Of a stretch of 64,000 bases of DNA, positions 24,238 through 64,000 are shown piece after piece (position 1 is the stretch's first letter; each line of letters begins with the position of its first letter). The translations under genes were made by a program, and so were the position numbers. The notes beneath the pieces are model-generated. The model did not search any database and was not told where the DNA came from. It saw only the letters and a program-made list of their open reading frames with translations. The DNA lies in assembly GCF_006547065.1 (NCBI RefSeq), contig NZ_CP041243.1, positions 2,495,001-2,559,000 of the forward strand, written 5' to 3'. This DNA comes from Brevundimonas sp. M20. GTDB taxonomy: Bacteria; Pseudomonadota; Alphaproteobacteria; Caulobacterales; Caulobacteraceae.

Positions 24238-24261
24238 CGCAAGTGGCTGACGCCACTTGCG
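24238..24261. promoter_or_regulatory. Perfect 10-bp inverted repeat between petA and trmL
   Basis: CGCAAGTGGC, TGAC, GCCACTTGCG. It lies 115 bases from petA and 59 bases from trmL in a divergent control region. There is no T-run on either side, so an operator is more likely than a terminator. The regulator is unknown. Confidence 0.5.
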
Positions 24262-24319
24262 AAACGGTCGCAAAATGAACCGCGACAAGCCCCCGGGCCG
24301 CGCGTATGAGGGCTCTAGA

Positions 24320-24769
24320 ATGCGTCTCGTCCTTTTTCAACCAGCCATTCCGCAGAACGTGGGCGCCAGCATCAGGCTGAGCGCCTGTTTCGGCGTTGAA
24401 CTGCACATAATCGAACCCACCGGCTTCCGTTTCGACGACCGGGCGATGAAGCGCGCGGCGCTGGACTATGGCCCGCTGAGCCATATGACGCGGCACGCGG
24501 ACTGGGAGGCTTTCCAGAAGGATCGCGCGCCGGGACGGCTGGTCCTGTTCACGACGAAGGGGGCGACGCCCCTGTCCGACTTCACGTTCAAGACCGACGA
24601 TGTGTTGCTCTTCGGCAGCGAACCGACCGGCGCGCCGGACTATGTGCATGACGCCGCTGATGAGCGGGTGGTGATTCCGTTGAAGGCCGGGGCGCGGTCG
24701 CTGAACCTGTCGGTCTCGGCGGGGATCGCGCTGTTCGAGGCTCTGCGGAAGACCGGCGGCCTCCCCTGA
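24320..24769 (+). CDS. trmL: tRNA (cytidine/uridine-2'-O-)-methyltransferase TrmL
   Basis: 149 residues, a minimal SPOUT methyltransferase that methylates the ribose of wobble base 34 in tRNA-Leu. Visible signatures are LFQPAIPQNVGASIRLSACF at the N-terminus, LLFGSEPTGAP, and the knot segment RSLNLSVSAGIALFEALRKTG. The start at 24320 gives the standard length. An in-frame ATG at 24257 would add 21 unconserved residues. It uses S-adenosylmethionine as donor in the cytoplasm. Confidence 0.95.
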   Translation: MRLVLFQPAIPQNVGASIRLSACFGVELHIIEPTGFRFDDRAMKRAALDYGPLSHMTRHADWEAFQKDRAPGRLVLFTTKGATPLSDFTFKTDDVLLFGSEPTGAPDYVHDAADERVVIPLKAGARSLNLSVSAGIALFEALRKTGGLP

Positions 24770-24828: not shown

Positions 24829-25629
24829 ATGATCGACCGTTTCCGCCTGCCTCTGGACTTTGACGTCGCGCCCCTCCTCGCGGACCTGTCGGCCCTCTCG
24901 GGTGCGGGCTGGCTCCCGCATTTCAACACCGGCTTCTATGACGGCGACTGGAGCGGGGTCGCCCTGCGCGAGCCCGTCGATGGGAACGGCGGCCTTGTCG
25001 CCACCGGCCGGACTTTCAGCGACACGCCGCTGATGGAGCTTTGCCCGGCCGTCCGTGAGGTGCTGGCGGCGCTGAAGTGCCCCCTGAGGTCGGTCCGCCT
25101 GCTGCGATTGGGGGCGGGCGCGACAATCCGTGAGCATCGCGACTATGATCTGGGTTACGAGCAGGGCGAGGCGCGGCTGCATGTGCCGATCCTGACCAAC
25201 CCGGACGTGGCCTTCCACCTGAGGAACCGTCAGGTCGAGATGAAGCCGGGCGAGACCTGGTATCTGGACCTGAGCCAGCCCCACCGGGTCTTGAACGGCG
25301 GCGCGACTGACCGCGTGCATCTGGTGATCGACGTGGCGGTGAACGATTGGCTGTGCGGCCTGGTCCCGTTCGAGGACGACGATCCCTTCCGCCCCTCCCC
25401 GCCCCTGATCGACGCTGAGACGGCGGCGAGCAATCTGGAGCGCTTCCGCGTCCGGGTCGCCGCGGAGCCGGGCCTGCACGCTATCCTGCGCGACACCACC
25501 GACCGCGACCTGTTCGTCGAGGAGGCGATCCGGCTGGGCCTGGAGCACGACCTGCCCTTCACCGCCGATGTGGTCCGTTCGGCCCTGGCGGAGGAACGCC
25601 GCCGATGGAACGAACAATGGATGAAGTGA
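24829..25629 (+). CDS. Aspartyl/asparaginyl beta-hydroxylase domain protein
   Basis: 266 residues. The Fe(II)/2-oxoglutarate hydroxylase domain covers about residues 30-175. His103 and Asp105 in IREHRDYDLGYEQGEARLHV, and His152 in LSQPHRVLNGG, are likely iron ligands. Arg162 (TDRVHLVIDV) probably binds 2-oxoglutarate. The C-terminal third (about 185-266) is helical and unrecognised. Members hydroxylate Asp/Asn side chains of proteins or small molecules. The gene overlaps the next gene by 25 bases, which suggests that hydroxylation and sulfation act on one target. Confidence 0.87.
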   Translation: MIDRFRLPLDFDVAPLLADLSALSGAGWLPHFNTGFYDGDWSGVALREPVDGNGGLVATGRTFSDTPLMELCPAVREVLAALKCPLRSVRLLRLGAGATIREHRDYDLGYEQGEARLHVPILTNPDVAFHLRNRQVEMKPGETWYLDLSQPHRVLNGGATDRVHLVIDVAVNDWLCGLVPFEDDDPFRPSPPLIDAETAASNLERFRVRVAAEPGLHAILRDTTDRDLFVEEAIRLGLEHDLPFTADVVRSALAEERRRWNEQWMK

Positions 25630-26582
25630 CCCCCCTGGACGGCTGGTTGCCCGGCCGCATCTTCTGGGACGACGCCGACGTCGAAGCCTCGGTCGTGGAG
25701 TGGATCTGGTGCGACAGCCCGCGCTTCACCGAGGCCTTTCTGGATGACACCTTCACCCGACTGATGCGCCACCCGGCCAACACCCTGTTCCGGCGACGCA
25801 CGACACTGGCGGGGCTGGAGGCTTGGGCGAAGCGATCACCCGGCATCCCGCCGACAGGCTTCATCTTCCACGTCTCGCGGTGCGGCTCGACCCTGCTGGG
25901 GCGCCTGCTGGGTGAACTGGACGGCGCGCTGATCCTGTCGGAGCCGGGTCCGGTGGACAGCCTGATCCGCGCCGGAGAGCGGCTGGACCGGGAACGTCAG
26001 ATCACGCTGCTGAGGGCCGTGGTCAGCGCGCTGGGTCAGGCGCGGGCGCCGGGACAGGATCGGCTGTTCCTCAAGATGGACGCCTGGAACACGCTTCATC
26101 ACGGCCTGATCCGCGAAGCCTACCCGACCACGCCCTGGGTGTTCCTGTATCGCGATCCGGTCGAGGTTCTCGTGAGTGCTCTGAACCAGCGCGGGGTGCA
26201 CACCGTGCCCGGCCTGCTGCCGGGCCGCCTGTTCGGAATCGAGGCGGAGCCTGATCCCGACGCCTATGCCGCAAGGGTTCTGGGGGCGATCTATGAGGCT
26301 GGAATCGAGGCGCTGGCGGCCTCACCCGGCCTGCCGGTTAACTATGCGGACCTGCCCGGCGCCGCATGGGAGGCAGTGGCCGGGCATTTCGGGATCACCC
26401 CGACGCCGGAGGAGATCCCGCGCCTGACCGCCCAGTCCGGACGCGATGCGAAGAGAGGCAACCAGCCCTTCACCGCAGACTCAGCGGCCAAGCGCAACGC
26501 GGCGCCCGACGCGCTGAAGGCCTTGGCGGAGCGCTGGATGCGCCCCGCCCATGATCGTCTGGAAGCCCTGCGGACCGCCTGA
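25605..26582 (+). CDS. Sulfotransferase-like P-loop protein
   Basis: 325 residues. FIFHVSRCGSTLLGRLL (residues 86-102) matches the 5'-phosphosulfate-binding loop of PAPS sulfotransferases. YRDPVEVLVSALNQRG, around 180, fits the 3'-phosphate motif. The N-terminal 80 residues (LDGWLPGRIFWDDADVEASV) are an unfamiliar extension. It would transfer sulfate to a hydroxyl. The ATG lies inside the upstream hydroxylase gene, behind GGAGG 10 bases before it. A second ATG at 25617 is possible. The hydroxylase may create the acceptor hydroxyl, but this is an inference from gene arrangement. Confidence 0.82.
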   Translation: MERTMDEVTPLDGWLPGRIFWDDADVEASVVEWIWCDSPRFTEAFLDDTFTRLMRHPANTLFRRRTTLAGLEAWAKRSPGIPPTGFIFHVSRCGSTLLGRLLGELDGALILSEPGPVDSLIRAGERLDRERQITLLRAVVSALGQARAPGQDRLFLKMDAWNTLHHGLIREAYPTTPWVFLYRDPVEVLVSALNQRGVHTVPGLLPGRLFGIEAEPDPDAYAARVLGAIYEAGIEALAASPGLPVNYADLPGAAWEAVAGHFGITPTPEEIPRLTAQSGRDAKRGNQPFTADSAAKRNAAPDALKALAERWMRPAHDRLEALRTA

Positions 26583-26583
26583 C

Positions 26584-27843
26584 CTATTCCGGCGCGCCGC
26601 CATCGAAGGCCGCGAGGCTGGGACGCTCGCTCCGCTTGCTCGCCGCCACCGCCTCGACCGAGCGCATGACACGCAGGACGTTCTCCCCCGCCAGCTTGCG
26701 GATGTCGGCCTCGGTCCAGCCGTTCGCCATCAGGGCGGCGAGGATGCGGGGATAGGCATCCACGCCGTCCACTCCATCCGGCAGGGCGTCGACGCCGTCG
26801 AAGTCGCCGCCCAGACCGACATGGTCGATCCCGGCGACGTCGCGCACGTGCTGGATATGGGCCACCACGTCGGCGACGCCCGCGCGCGGAACCGGGTTGG
26901 CGGCGGTCCATGCCGCCATTCCGGCGGTGACCGCGGCCGGGTTGCCCGGGTTGAGCGACTTCAGTCGCGCGTCCTCTGCGGCGCGGGCGGCGCTCCAGGC
27001 GCGAACGGTCTCGTTGATGAAGCCCGGCACGAAGGTGACCATCACCACGCCGCCGTTCTGCGGCATCAGGCGCAGGACATTGTCAGGGACGTTGCGGGCA
27101 TGCCCCGTCACAGCGCGCGCCGATGAGTGGGAGAAGATCACCGGGGCCTCGGACACGCGGATGGCGTCCAGCATGGTGTCTTCTGACACGTGGCTGAGAT
27201 CGACCATCATGCCGAGGCGATTCATCTCCTTGACCACCTGCTCGCCGAAGGGAGACAGGCCACCCCACTTGGGCGCATCCGTCGCGCTGTCAGCCCAGGT
27301 CGTGGTCTTCGAGTGGGTCAGGGTCATGTAGCGGACCCCGGCCTCGTGGAACTCGCGCAGCAGGCCCAGCGAGTCGTCGATCGAGTACCCGCCCTCGATC
27401 CCCATCAGGCTGGCGATCCGGCCACGCCGATGGATGCGGACGATGTCGTCGGCGGTCGTGGCCAGCTCAAACACCTCGGGATGGGCCGCGACCATGCGGC
27501 GGACCACATCGATCTGCTCCCACGTCGCGACGGCCGCATCGGGCGGGGTCAGGCTGGCGGGCACATAGACCGACCAGAACTGGCCGCCGACGCCCCCGGC
27601 GCGCAGGCGCGGAATGTCGGTGTGCAGGTCCGTCGAGGCGTGAAGATCGTGGGTCAGATCAACCGCATAGGGGTCGCTGCCGTGCCCCTGACGCAGGGCC
27701 CAGGGCAGGTCGTTGTGGCCGTCGATCAACGGCGTCCGTTCAAGGATGCGCCGCGCCTGGACCTCGCCGGGACTGGTCTGGGCCATCGCGGGAAGCGCGA
27801 CGGCGGACAGGGCGGCGGCGGCCAGAAGGACGGTGCGGAACAT
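26584..27843 (-). CDS. Membrane dipeptidase, family M19
   Basis: 419 residues. Signal peptide MFRTVLLAAAALSAVALPAM with cleavage at AMAQ, so the enzyme is periplasmic. The dinuclear zinc site of renal dipeptidases is visible: His43 and Asp45 in LIDGHNDLPW, Glu in LMGIEGGYSI, His in VDLSHVSEDT, and His in IFSHSSARAV. DHVGLGGDFDG is the usual substrate-site Asp. Such enzymes split dipeptides, including D-amino-acid ones. It ends two bases after the convergent sulfotransferase and probably works with the two M28 peptidases in peptide use. Confidence 0.95.
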   Translation of the reverse strand: MFRTVLLAAAALSAVALPAMAQTSPGEVQARRILERTPLIDGHNDLPWALRQGHGSDPYAVDLTHDLHASTDLHTDIPRLRAGGVGGQFWSVYVPASLTPPDAAVATWEQIDVVRRMVAAHPEVFELATTADDIVRIHRRGRIASLMGIEGGYSIDDSLGLLREFHEAGVRYMTLTHSKTTTWADSATDAPKWGGLSPFGEQVVKEMNRLGMMVDLSHVSEDTMLDAIRVSEAPVIFSHSSARAVTGHARNVPDNVLRLMPQNGGVVMVTFVPGFINETVRAWSAARAAEDARLKSLNPGNPAAVTAGMAAWTAANPVPRAGVADVVAHIQHVRDVAGIDHVGLGGDFDGVDALPDGVDGVDAYPRILAALMANGWTEADIRKLAGENVLRVMRSVEAVAASKRSERPSLAAFDGGAPE

Positions 27844-63188: not shown

Positions 63189-64000
63189 CTACTCCCAGGT
63201 CGAAACCGTCGGGGAGTAGGCGTCCAGCGCCTCAAGGGTCGTGGAGACGAGGACGCGTTCTTCCTCGGTCAGCTCCGGTCGCCAGATGTCGAAGATGAGC
63301 ACCACGCGGGTACGGTCGCTGGTGTTGAGCGCTTCGTGTTCGATGGTGTCGTCGAAGGCCCAGCCCTGGCCGCGCCGCCACTCACGCACCTCGTTGCCGA
63401 CACGGAATTTGCAGCCTTCGGGCACGATCAGCGGCAGGTGGCAGGTCAGGCGGGTGTTCACGAAGCCGGTATGGGGCAGGATGTGGGCCCCGGCCTTCAG
63501 CTGCGAGAACATGACCTGCGGCGATCGCGCGGCGACCCGGCAAAGGGGCGCGTCAGACAGGGCCGCCATGGTCAGGGGACAGCGCGCCGCGTTCGGCGTC
63601 TCGGCTCCGTCGCGCCAAAGGAAGCAGGCGCTCCAGTCCATGCTGTCGACCAGCGGATAGTCGGTGCGCGAGGGCAGGTCGGACACCGTCTGCAGATAGG
63701 GCGAGAAGGCCGCATCCTCGGCCAGCACCGTCTCCAGCTCGCGGGTCATGTCGTCCGTGGCCGCCTCGACCCGATCCATCCAGGGGAACATGTCGCGGGG
63801 ATAGAACTGGGTGTTGGGCAGCTCGGGGAAGAAGAAGGCCTGCGGCTGCTGGAAATAGGGCTGGCGACGTCCGGTCACGATATCGAGCGCATGGGTGAAG
63901 CGGGCGCTGGAGCGGCCTTCGACATAGCCGGACTGCCGCAGCTCCTCCCGCAGGTGATCCGCCATGCCGGCGACGAGACGCCTCTGAATCGCCTTCGCCC
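63189..64000 (-). CDS. Aspartyl/asparaginyl beta-hydroxylase, C-terminal part (cut by edge)
   Basis: At least 270 residues are visible, and the frame continues past the right edge. The stretch AKAIQRRLVAGMADHLREEL upstream of the first Met looks coding, so the Met at 63965 is probably not the start and an N-terminal helical-repeat region may precede. The hydroxylase domain has PHTGFVNTRLTCHLPLIVPE (first iron His) and FDDTIEHEALNTSDRTRVVL (second iron His and 2-oxoglutarate Arg). Unlike the hydroxylase at 24829, no Asp follows the first His. The substrate is unknown. Confidence 0.85.
   Translation of the reverse strand, partial: AKAIQRRLVAGMADHLREELRQSGYVEGRSSARFTHALDIVTGRRQPYFQQPQAFFFPELPNTQFYPRDMFPWMDRVEAATDDMTRELETVLAEDAAFSPYLQTVSDLPSRTDYPLVDSMDWSACFLWRDGAETPNAARCPLTMAALSDAPLCRVAARSPQVMFSQLKAGAHILPHTGFVNTRLTCHLPLIVPEGCKFRVGNEVREWRRGQGWAFDDTIEHEALNTSDRTRVVLIFDIWRPELTEEERVLVSTTLEALDAYSPTVSTWE

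Follow-up and report, generated by a model that had tools for sequence, protein, structure and literature searches.

Hydroxylation of a C-terminal residue has been described for CanE, which beta-hydroxylates the C-terminal Asp of the lasso peptide canucin A (PMC8498205), and sulfation of a peptide hydroxyl has been described for MbnS of methanobactin (PMC3621798). Clusters in which a sulfotransferase occurs with an adenosine 5'-phosphosulfate (APS) kinase, and in the cyr cluster also with a hydroxylase, are represented by SxtN/SxtO and CyrJ/CyrN/CyrI in the account of PMC2885083. Here we describe two overlapping genes from a stretch of 64,000 nucleotides (the window) of Brevundimonas sp. M20, the genome of which is a single contig of 3.3 Mb (G000). 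They encode a hydroxylase dependent on Fe(II) and 2-oxoglutarate (2OG), hereafter Hyd, and a sulfotransferase of the 3'-phosphoadenosine 5'-phosphosulfate (PAPS) type, hereafter ST. Taking the genomic evidence together, we cautiously favor the proposal that the two enzymes carry out a two-step tailoring of leaderless phage-tail-collar proteins, in which the C-terminal Asn would be beta-hydroxylated and then sulfated.

Conservation of the pair and its link to tail-collar proteins

The pair was surveyed in 131 genomes of the same genus, 198 of a Pseudomonadaceae-type family (f48), and 199 of an alphaproteobacterial family taken as the sphingomonads (f9). Genomes with a match at an E value of up to 1e-50 were counted as Hyd carriers, and those with more distant PF05118 relatives (for example, G004, G306, and G350) as lacking Hyd. 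Carriers number 5, 36, and 4, respectively. ST lies directly after Hyd in all 5 Brevundimonas and all 36 f48 carriers, and among the examined loci (two of which, L004 and L116, are one contig) a full-length Hyd is followed directly on the same strand by ST in 43 of 43, a count that includes an ST split between frames in G1003 (L108). In f9 the genes are not in tandem but divergent or, in G249, 10 kb apart. Versions of Hyd of about 190 residues, which lack the C-terminal module described below, adjoin an ST in five loci; the STs there have about 80 to 115 residues before the matched part in L051, L055, L057, and L084 and 46 in L054. In L053, L056, L058, and L059, no ST could be seen next to Hyd, that of L056 (G249) lying about 10 kb off and adjoining a collar gene.

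The two enzymes are also fused in nature. When the two proteins were searched as a single joined query, 81 proteins were newly listed, of which 60 combine both enzymes; Hyd leads in 50 of these and ST in the other 10. The Nif11-like module was seen in 41 listed proteins, and in 39 of those it occupies the middle of a Hyd-first protein. Another fusion, P0054, has the architecture Nif11-ST-GNAT and links ST to the GNAT acetyltransferase of the collar operons. The adjacency in 43 of 43 loci and these natural fusions rule out chance neighbors. Related pairs or fusions also occur under names from Verrucomicrobiota and Acidobacteriota, and the system may thus be wide; the plasmid collection gave distant matches only (7 and 4), and the Diaphorobacter and Azospirillum loci were read. 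Frame breaks, from either decay or assembly error, were seen in Hyd of L207 (G1063), ST of L108 (G1003), and the collar of L099 (G1126). The initial annotation had raised the prospect that the two genes always travel together. The pair extends far beyond close relatives, to f48 and f9; given also an intact PAPS site and the fusions seen in nature, the two enzymes very likely act in a joint reaction, and we take Hyd and ST to constitute a dedicated two-enzyme system.

Clustering of the proteins encoded around the pair yielded the GNAT acetyltransferase, HlyD and export-type M50-HlyD proteins, DUF6916 proteins, giant immunoglobulin (Ig)-like proteins, and short phage-tail-collar proteins (PF07484; hereafter collars). 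GNAT and a collar gene both fall in the fetched stretch in 30 of the 36 f48 loci. In some Pseudomonas, the genes preceding the pair encode instead an APS kinase, a TolC-like protein (named by eye), and a giant Big_12 protein; the representatives of this arrangement in the genome set (G184, G427, and G1136) have collars elsewhere in the genome. For the third gene about which the initial annotation asked, the collars are a fitting answer, being found in all 45 Hyd genomes of the three families. Collar-bearing genomes (22 of 131 in Brevundimonas, 47 of 198 in f48, and 31 of 199 in f9) contain every one of the 5, 36, and 4 Hyd carriers, a co-occurrence that for Brevundimonas has a probability of about 9e-5, computed by hand on the assumption that genomes are independent, which they are not. 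The source genome has three leaderless collars (PF07484, "tail fiber" or MdpB-like) at 0.52 Mb (522 kb) and 3.09 Mb (3091 kb), outside the window; the 3.09-Mb collar has genes for GNAT and DUF6916 proteins as neighbors. By these genomic comparisons, the pairing and the collars as candidate substrate family are well supported.

The covariation of the collar C-terminus with the pair points to the residue that might be modified. The collar counts drop nine fused or fragmentary rows, which include the only fetched collar of Brevundimonas G699, and cover the fetched collars; unfetched ones are those of Brevundimonas G713, G720, G729, G733, and G033 (E 4e-8 to 2e-17) and one additional place each in G016 and G789. 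Of the 69 collars from Hyd genomes, 68 have Asn as the last residue, in the pattern ...[FY]P[SAT][RQF]N-COOH, the exception being the frame-broken collar of G1126; of those from genomes lacking Hyd, 38 of 93 do. When only collars with GNAT within 4 kb are considered, genomes in which every collar ends in Asn make up 44 of the 45 with Hyd and 2 of the 15 lacking it; of the latter two, G1063 has ST in place with Hyd broken across two frames, and G848, a genome of 120 contigs, has its collar near a contig edge. Six f48 operons (G993, G224, G403, G1101, G1106, and G1137) lack Hyd and ST and keep HlyD, M50-HlyD, GNAT, and collar, with DUF6916 in five of them; their eight collars end in Asp (six), Gln (one), and Asn (one).

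An association test over every well-filled alignment column, with collars counted as independent, ranks the terminal column first in f48 (2e-10, the next column 1e-7; 166 columns), in Brevundimonas (3e-9, next 8e-6; 171 columns), and in the subset of HlyD operons (1.2e-6, next 1.7e-3; 172 columns). In phylogenetically independent pairs drawn on supported branches of the collar tree, a mean of 4.9 of 7 behave as expected and none in the opposite way. This covariation supports the collar C-terminal Asn as the probable modified residue, and our preference for the reading as a whole is the guarded one given at the outset.

In the proposed mechanism, Hyd would place a hydroxyl on the beta-carbon of the Asn that ends the collar, and ST would transfer sulfate from PAPS onto the new hydroxyl, with the Nif11-like module, on either enzyme, presumably holding the collar tail or keeping the enzymes together. 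Both groups on the same residue would add 96 Da. We infer which step comes first, which atom is modified, what the module does, and any biological role; a charged fiber tip for surface binding is a guess at that role. A free carboxylate would be common to the C-terminal residue and the free-amino-acid substrates of Hyd's closest solved relatives. The initial annotation had suggested a sulfated hydroxy-Asp/Asn on either a protein or a small molecule; the former has been sharpened to a protein ending specifically in Asn, and the latter has in its favor here only the likeness to free-amino-acid hydroxylases.

Other proteins around the collars were also considered. Giant proteins stand beside the pair in many loci, and both of the two tested, of the Pseudomonas type, have Big_12 domains; giant Big_12 Ig-like proteins beside collar or Hyd-ST genes were seen at 11202-17000 of L109 and 2-2836 of L003, one of them with an N-terminal DUF4347. 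They are possible secretion or display partners. As carriers of the PSRN end they were rejected, the C-termini in the five Pseudomonas loci looked at being EMQA. DUF6916-type proteins beside collars (L126 6987-7298, L083 13355-13648, and others) end in ...FN-COOH in 11 of the 11 ends seen, the Pseudomonas type lying outside this sample, and such ends occur with or without the hydroxylase; the idea that the terminal Asn of the DUF6916 protein tracks the pair was likewise dropped, the FN end being present with the pair (four loci) and without it (two loci). In four f9 loci that were read (L226, L229, L232, and L236), from genomes with no GNAT gene close to the collar, collars begin like Sec signal peptides and end in PSRN or PPRN, with no hydroxylase nearby. 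L051, L055, L084, and L253 (an Azospirillum plasmid) have collar, GNAT, and DUF6916-like genes beside asparagine synthase, PqqD, a B2-type protease, and an HPr-kinase-like protein (not every gene in every locus), an arrangement that hints at a link in alphaproteobacteria between lasso-type machinery and tail-collar proteins.

The enzymes, the Nif11-like module, and the flanks

Hyd (24829..25629, forward strand, 266 residues) belongs to the Asp/Asn beta-hydroxylase family, as initially annotated: it matches PF05118 over residues 65-169 with 58.5 bits against a cut-off of 22.6 (E 9e-16). Its catalytic double-stranded beta-helix domain spans residues 1-172 (24829..25344) and has an intact Fe(II)/2OG site, with H103 and D105 of the H-R-D motif (25135..25143), H152 (25282..25284), and R162 (25312..25314) invariant in 45 aligned Hyd rows. 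From knowledge of the family, we take H103 and D105 to be the first two metal ligands and H152 the third; R162 presumably binds the 2OG carboxylate. The structure model (mean predicted local distance difference test score [pLDDT], 93.7) has L-proline cis-4-hydroxylase as its best Foldseek match (5e-14), with AspH also among the matches; the structural alignments mostly span the catalytic part and barely cover the Nif11-like part. With NCBIfam TIGR04531 (nonproteinogenic amino acid hydroxylase), Hyd scores 19.2 bits, below the cut-off of 300. Judged from its sequence, Hyd looks active. The window holds a second PF05118 protein on the reverse strand (63189-63965; 149.7 bits over 63276-63755) with an HTG motif instead of HRD; we saw no link between it and the Hyd-ST pair and take it to resemble an ordinary AspH/LpxO-type oxygenase.

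ST (25605..26582, forward strand, 325 residues) matches PF13469 with 29.9 bits against a cut-off of 27 (E 8.2e-7). Its 5'-PAPS loop, FHVSRCGSTL (residues 88-97; 25866..25895), is invariant from F88 to T96 except for V90, and in its 3'-phosphate motif, RDPVEVLVS (residues 183-191; 26151..26177), R183, P185, E187, V188, and S191 are invariant. FHxSRCGST and R183, P185, and S191 of RDPxxxxxS are thus kept in all 44 aligned ST rows, and the PAPS-type identity given initially, with an intact site, holds up. The structure model (mean pLDDT, 94.6) has tyrosylprotein sulfotransferases on top among its Foldseek neighbors (6.6e-6) and CurM/Ols domains further among them. The source genome encodes an APS kinase (PF01583, E 2.6e-63), and the means of making PAPS are thus present; in some Pseudomonas an APS kinase gene lies just upstream of the pair. 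With its PAPS-site motifs intact, ST looks active. The extra N-terminal region noted in ST by the initial annotation is not an add-on, as it is conserved throughout the family, W14, P16, W33, and P57 being invariant in the same 44 rows.

The corresponding C-terminal region of Hyd, initially reported as unrecognized, does exist and can now be assigned to a Nif11-like helical module (residues 196-265; 25414..25623). These 70 residues form four helices in the structure model. PF07862 (Nif11) matches 23 of the 45 aligned Hyd rows at an E value of 0.01 or better and does not match the window Hyd itself at E values up to 1; since those rows match and the region aligns, we consider the window module a diverged member by homology. 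A species-specific origin is ruled out by its presence in the aligned relatives. In profile comparison, the module matches the N-terminus of other sulfotransferases (hhalign probability 98.7%, E 3.3e-16), from which it follows that it occurs on either enzyme. No Gly-Gly cleavage site and no variable core peptide follow the module, the chain ending just past the nearly invariant W260 and W264, and it is thus not the precursor of a ribosomally synthesized and posttranslationally modified peptide (RiPP). It is possible that the module holds the two enzymes together.

Hyd and ST overlap by 25 bases (25605..25629) if the ATG at 25605 is used, as originally described, and the putative ribosome-binding site of ST, GGAGG at 25590-25594, indeed lies within Hyd, 10 bases upstream of that ATG. 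A second in-frame ATG at 25617, the start used in the nearest relatives (ST of 321 residues), would shorten the overlap to 13 bases. With starts taken from the longest open reading frames (ORFs), 27 of the 43 other loci overlap by 13 or 25 bases; in 12 of the 43, the longest ST ORF begins deep in Hyd, and these loci give no reliable overlap. Besides a Rieske protein, the flanking genes of the window pair encode a SpoU-family methyltransferase and an M19 membrane dipeptidase. The methyltransferase upstream (24257..24769, forward strand) and the dipeptidase downstream (26584..27843, reverse strand) are both outside the system; at the same places in L047 (G372), there are proteins with the same beginning as the former and a beginning like that of the latter.

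Alternative explanations

Several observations weigh against the proposal that the collar C-terminal Asn is the target. The residue test is limited to Pseudomonadota, the carriers G061, G257, G258, G267, and G374 lay outside the genome-wide collar search, and the collars of the source genome are not adjacent to the pair. In f9 the terminal column is not among the best associated, other columns leading, and 29 of the 43 collars from genomes lacking Hyd end in Asn, 27 of these 29 coming from genomes in which no GNAT is linked to the collar. The sign test that takes account of the tree is borderline (median p 0.06). Asn ends are also found in GNAT-linked collars of genomes lacking Hyd (G848, 1 of 1; G008, G1054, G1066, G1109, and G934, 1 of 3 each; G993, 1 of 2) and, without linked GNAT, in two of three collars of G1111 and one of G789. 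Finally, the closest solved relative of Hyd by sequence acts on free proline. Hyd thus predicts Asn, and, with Asn-ending collars present without the pair, Asn does not predict Hyd. An Azospirillum plasmid stretch with ST, PqqD, asparagine synthase, collars, and GNAT and no Hyd, in which the collars end in PSRN, PVRA, and VNPN, is neutral.

Enzymes of the 2OG family and sulfotransferases often read a nearby motif, and the pair could accordingly modify collars elsewhere in the chain, with the C-terminal Asn serving as a docking signal or being kept for another reason. The retention of the terminal Asn even where the preceding R is replaced by Q or F is consistent with this, but in the HlyD operons no other column approaches the terminal one (1.7e-3 versus 1.2e-6), and the six operons without the pair change mostly from Asn to Asp; we consider this explanation unlikely. 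It is rather improbable that Hyd hydroxylates the collar C-terminal Asn and that ST sulfates another target, for example, Tyr, Ser, or Thr in the collar or in the adjacent giant Big_12 protein. The tyrosylprotein sulfotransferases as closest folds of ST and the giant proteins beside the pair in many loci, with Big_12 in both of those tested, would suit such a division of labor; on the other hand, the Nif11-like module that the enzymes share and their fusion in either order argue for one substrate. Sulfation serves as activation in the CurM and Ols sulfotransferase domains, and with these among the structural neighbors of ST, a further variant is that the sulfate is an activating leaving group. 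A beta-sulfo-oxy-Asn at the chain end might then be displaced or eliminated to yield a C-terminal beta-lactone, a dehydro-residue, or a covalent cross-link, the partner in the last case being the DUF6916 protein, the giant Big_12 protein, or the cell surface. Collar tips would in that event be chemically reactive or covalently anchored; we give both the chemistry and the choice of partner a very low probability.

Two further explanations remove the collars from the reaction. In one, Hyd and ST would be a tailoring pair for a RiPP or lasso peptide, with a small peptide as the real substrate and the collars as bystanders. The pair occurs with PqqD, a B2-type protease, asparagine synthase, and an HPr-kinase-like protein, in varying completeness, in L051 (by profile) and in L055 and L084 (by sequence); CanE is described as a lasso hydroxylase (PMC8498205), and Nif11 as a known leader fold (PMC2887384). 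Among the window ORFs located at 20-32 kb, asparagine synthase, B2 protease, and PqqD were not recognized by eye, no profile search having been aimed at them. However, no such genes were seen among the listed neighbors of the Pseudomonas-type and Brevundimonas loci, again with no profile search aimed at them. One crude pattern found no convincing lasso precursor in L051, L055, and L084, there is no core peptide after the module, and all 45 carriers have collars, which together make a peptide substrate quite improbable. In the other, a free amino acid would be hydroxylated and then sulfated in a small-molecule pathway. This would fit L-proline cis-4-hydroxylase as the best solved relative and the weak TIGR04531 match (19.2 bits, cut-off 300), but not the SpoU methyltransferase, Rieske protein, and dipeptidase encoded in the flanks, nor the tracking of a protein residue by the pair, and we regard it as scarcely probable.

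Comparison with known systems

Returning to the proposed two-step modification of collar C-termini, the enzyme folds are those of known families; in the literature searched, we found neither their combination nor the shuffling of the module, the substrate family, or the predicted terminal residue. Word searches of titles and abstract starts in the open-licence literature gave no description of a Nif11-hydroxylase, of a protein-acting hydroxylase-sulfotransferase pair, or of the modification of tail-collar proteins. If the proposal is right, it would describe a dedicated hydroxylate-then-sulfate modification at the C-termini of bacterial proteins, for which the genomes identify both a substrate family and a specific residue to consider. 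We know of no clear role for phage-tail-collar proteins outside phages, and the system would give a context to proteins of PF05118, PF13469, PF07862, PF07484, and DUF6916 for which "hypothetical" or "tail fiber" is a frequent annotation.

Human AspH (PF05118) has the same fold as Hyd and catalyzes Asp/Asn beta-hydroxylation of proteins. Its metal center has two His; the window Hyd instead has an H-x-D...H center, lacks a TPR domain, ends in the Nif11-like module, and is predicted to act at a terminal site, not an internal one. L-proline cis-4-hydroxylase and type II proline 3-hydroxylase (4p7w and 1e5r) are the closest solved sequences and best Foldseek matches, and their substrate is a free amino acid. 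On the side of ST, the tyrosylprotein sulfotransferases (TPSTs), its top Foldseek matches, carry out PAPS-dependent sulfation of a peptide or protein hydroxyl, with Tyr as their target. For MbnS and the TPSTs, the targets are Tyr or Thr, and the description in PMC3621798, as far as it extends, mentions no hydroxylase partner.

The initial annotation knew of no described pathway of this kind, and none was found for proteins, but the statement has to be narrowed, as clusters with a hydroxylase and a sulfotransferase are on record for small molecules, cyr being the example in PMC2885083. The cyr cluster resembles the APS kinase-Hyd-ST set of some Pseudomonas; the sxt and cyr products, however, are small-molecule scaffolds, and the same account proposes different carbons as the sites of action of CyrI and CyrJ. 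Nif11-type RiPP leaders, as outlined in PMC2887384, have a module (PF07862) homologous to that of Hyd, which in the window lacks the Gly-Gly site and core and is fused to an enzyme instead. The direct precedent is CanE, in that both it and Hyd act, or in the case of Hyd would act, on a C-terminal residue. CanE acts on the Asp of a lasso precursor peptide, with no sulfotransferase partner mentioned in the part of the account at hand (PMC8498205), whereas the predicted substrate here is the terminal Asn of a collar protein.

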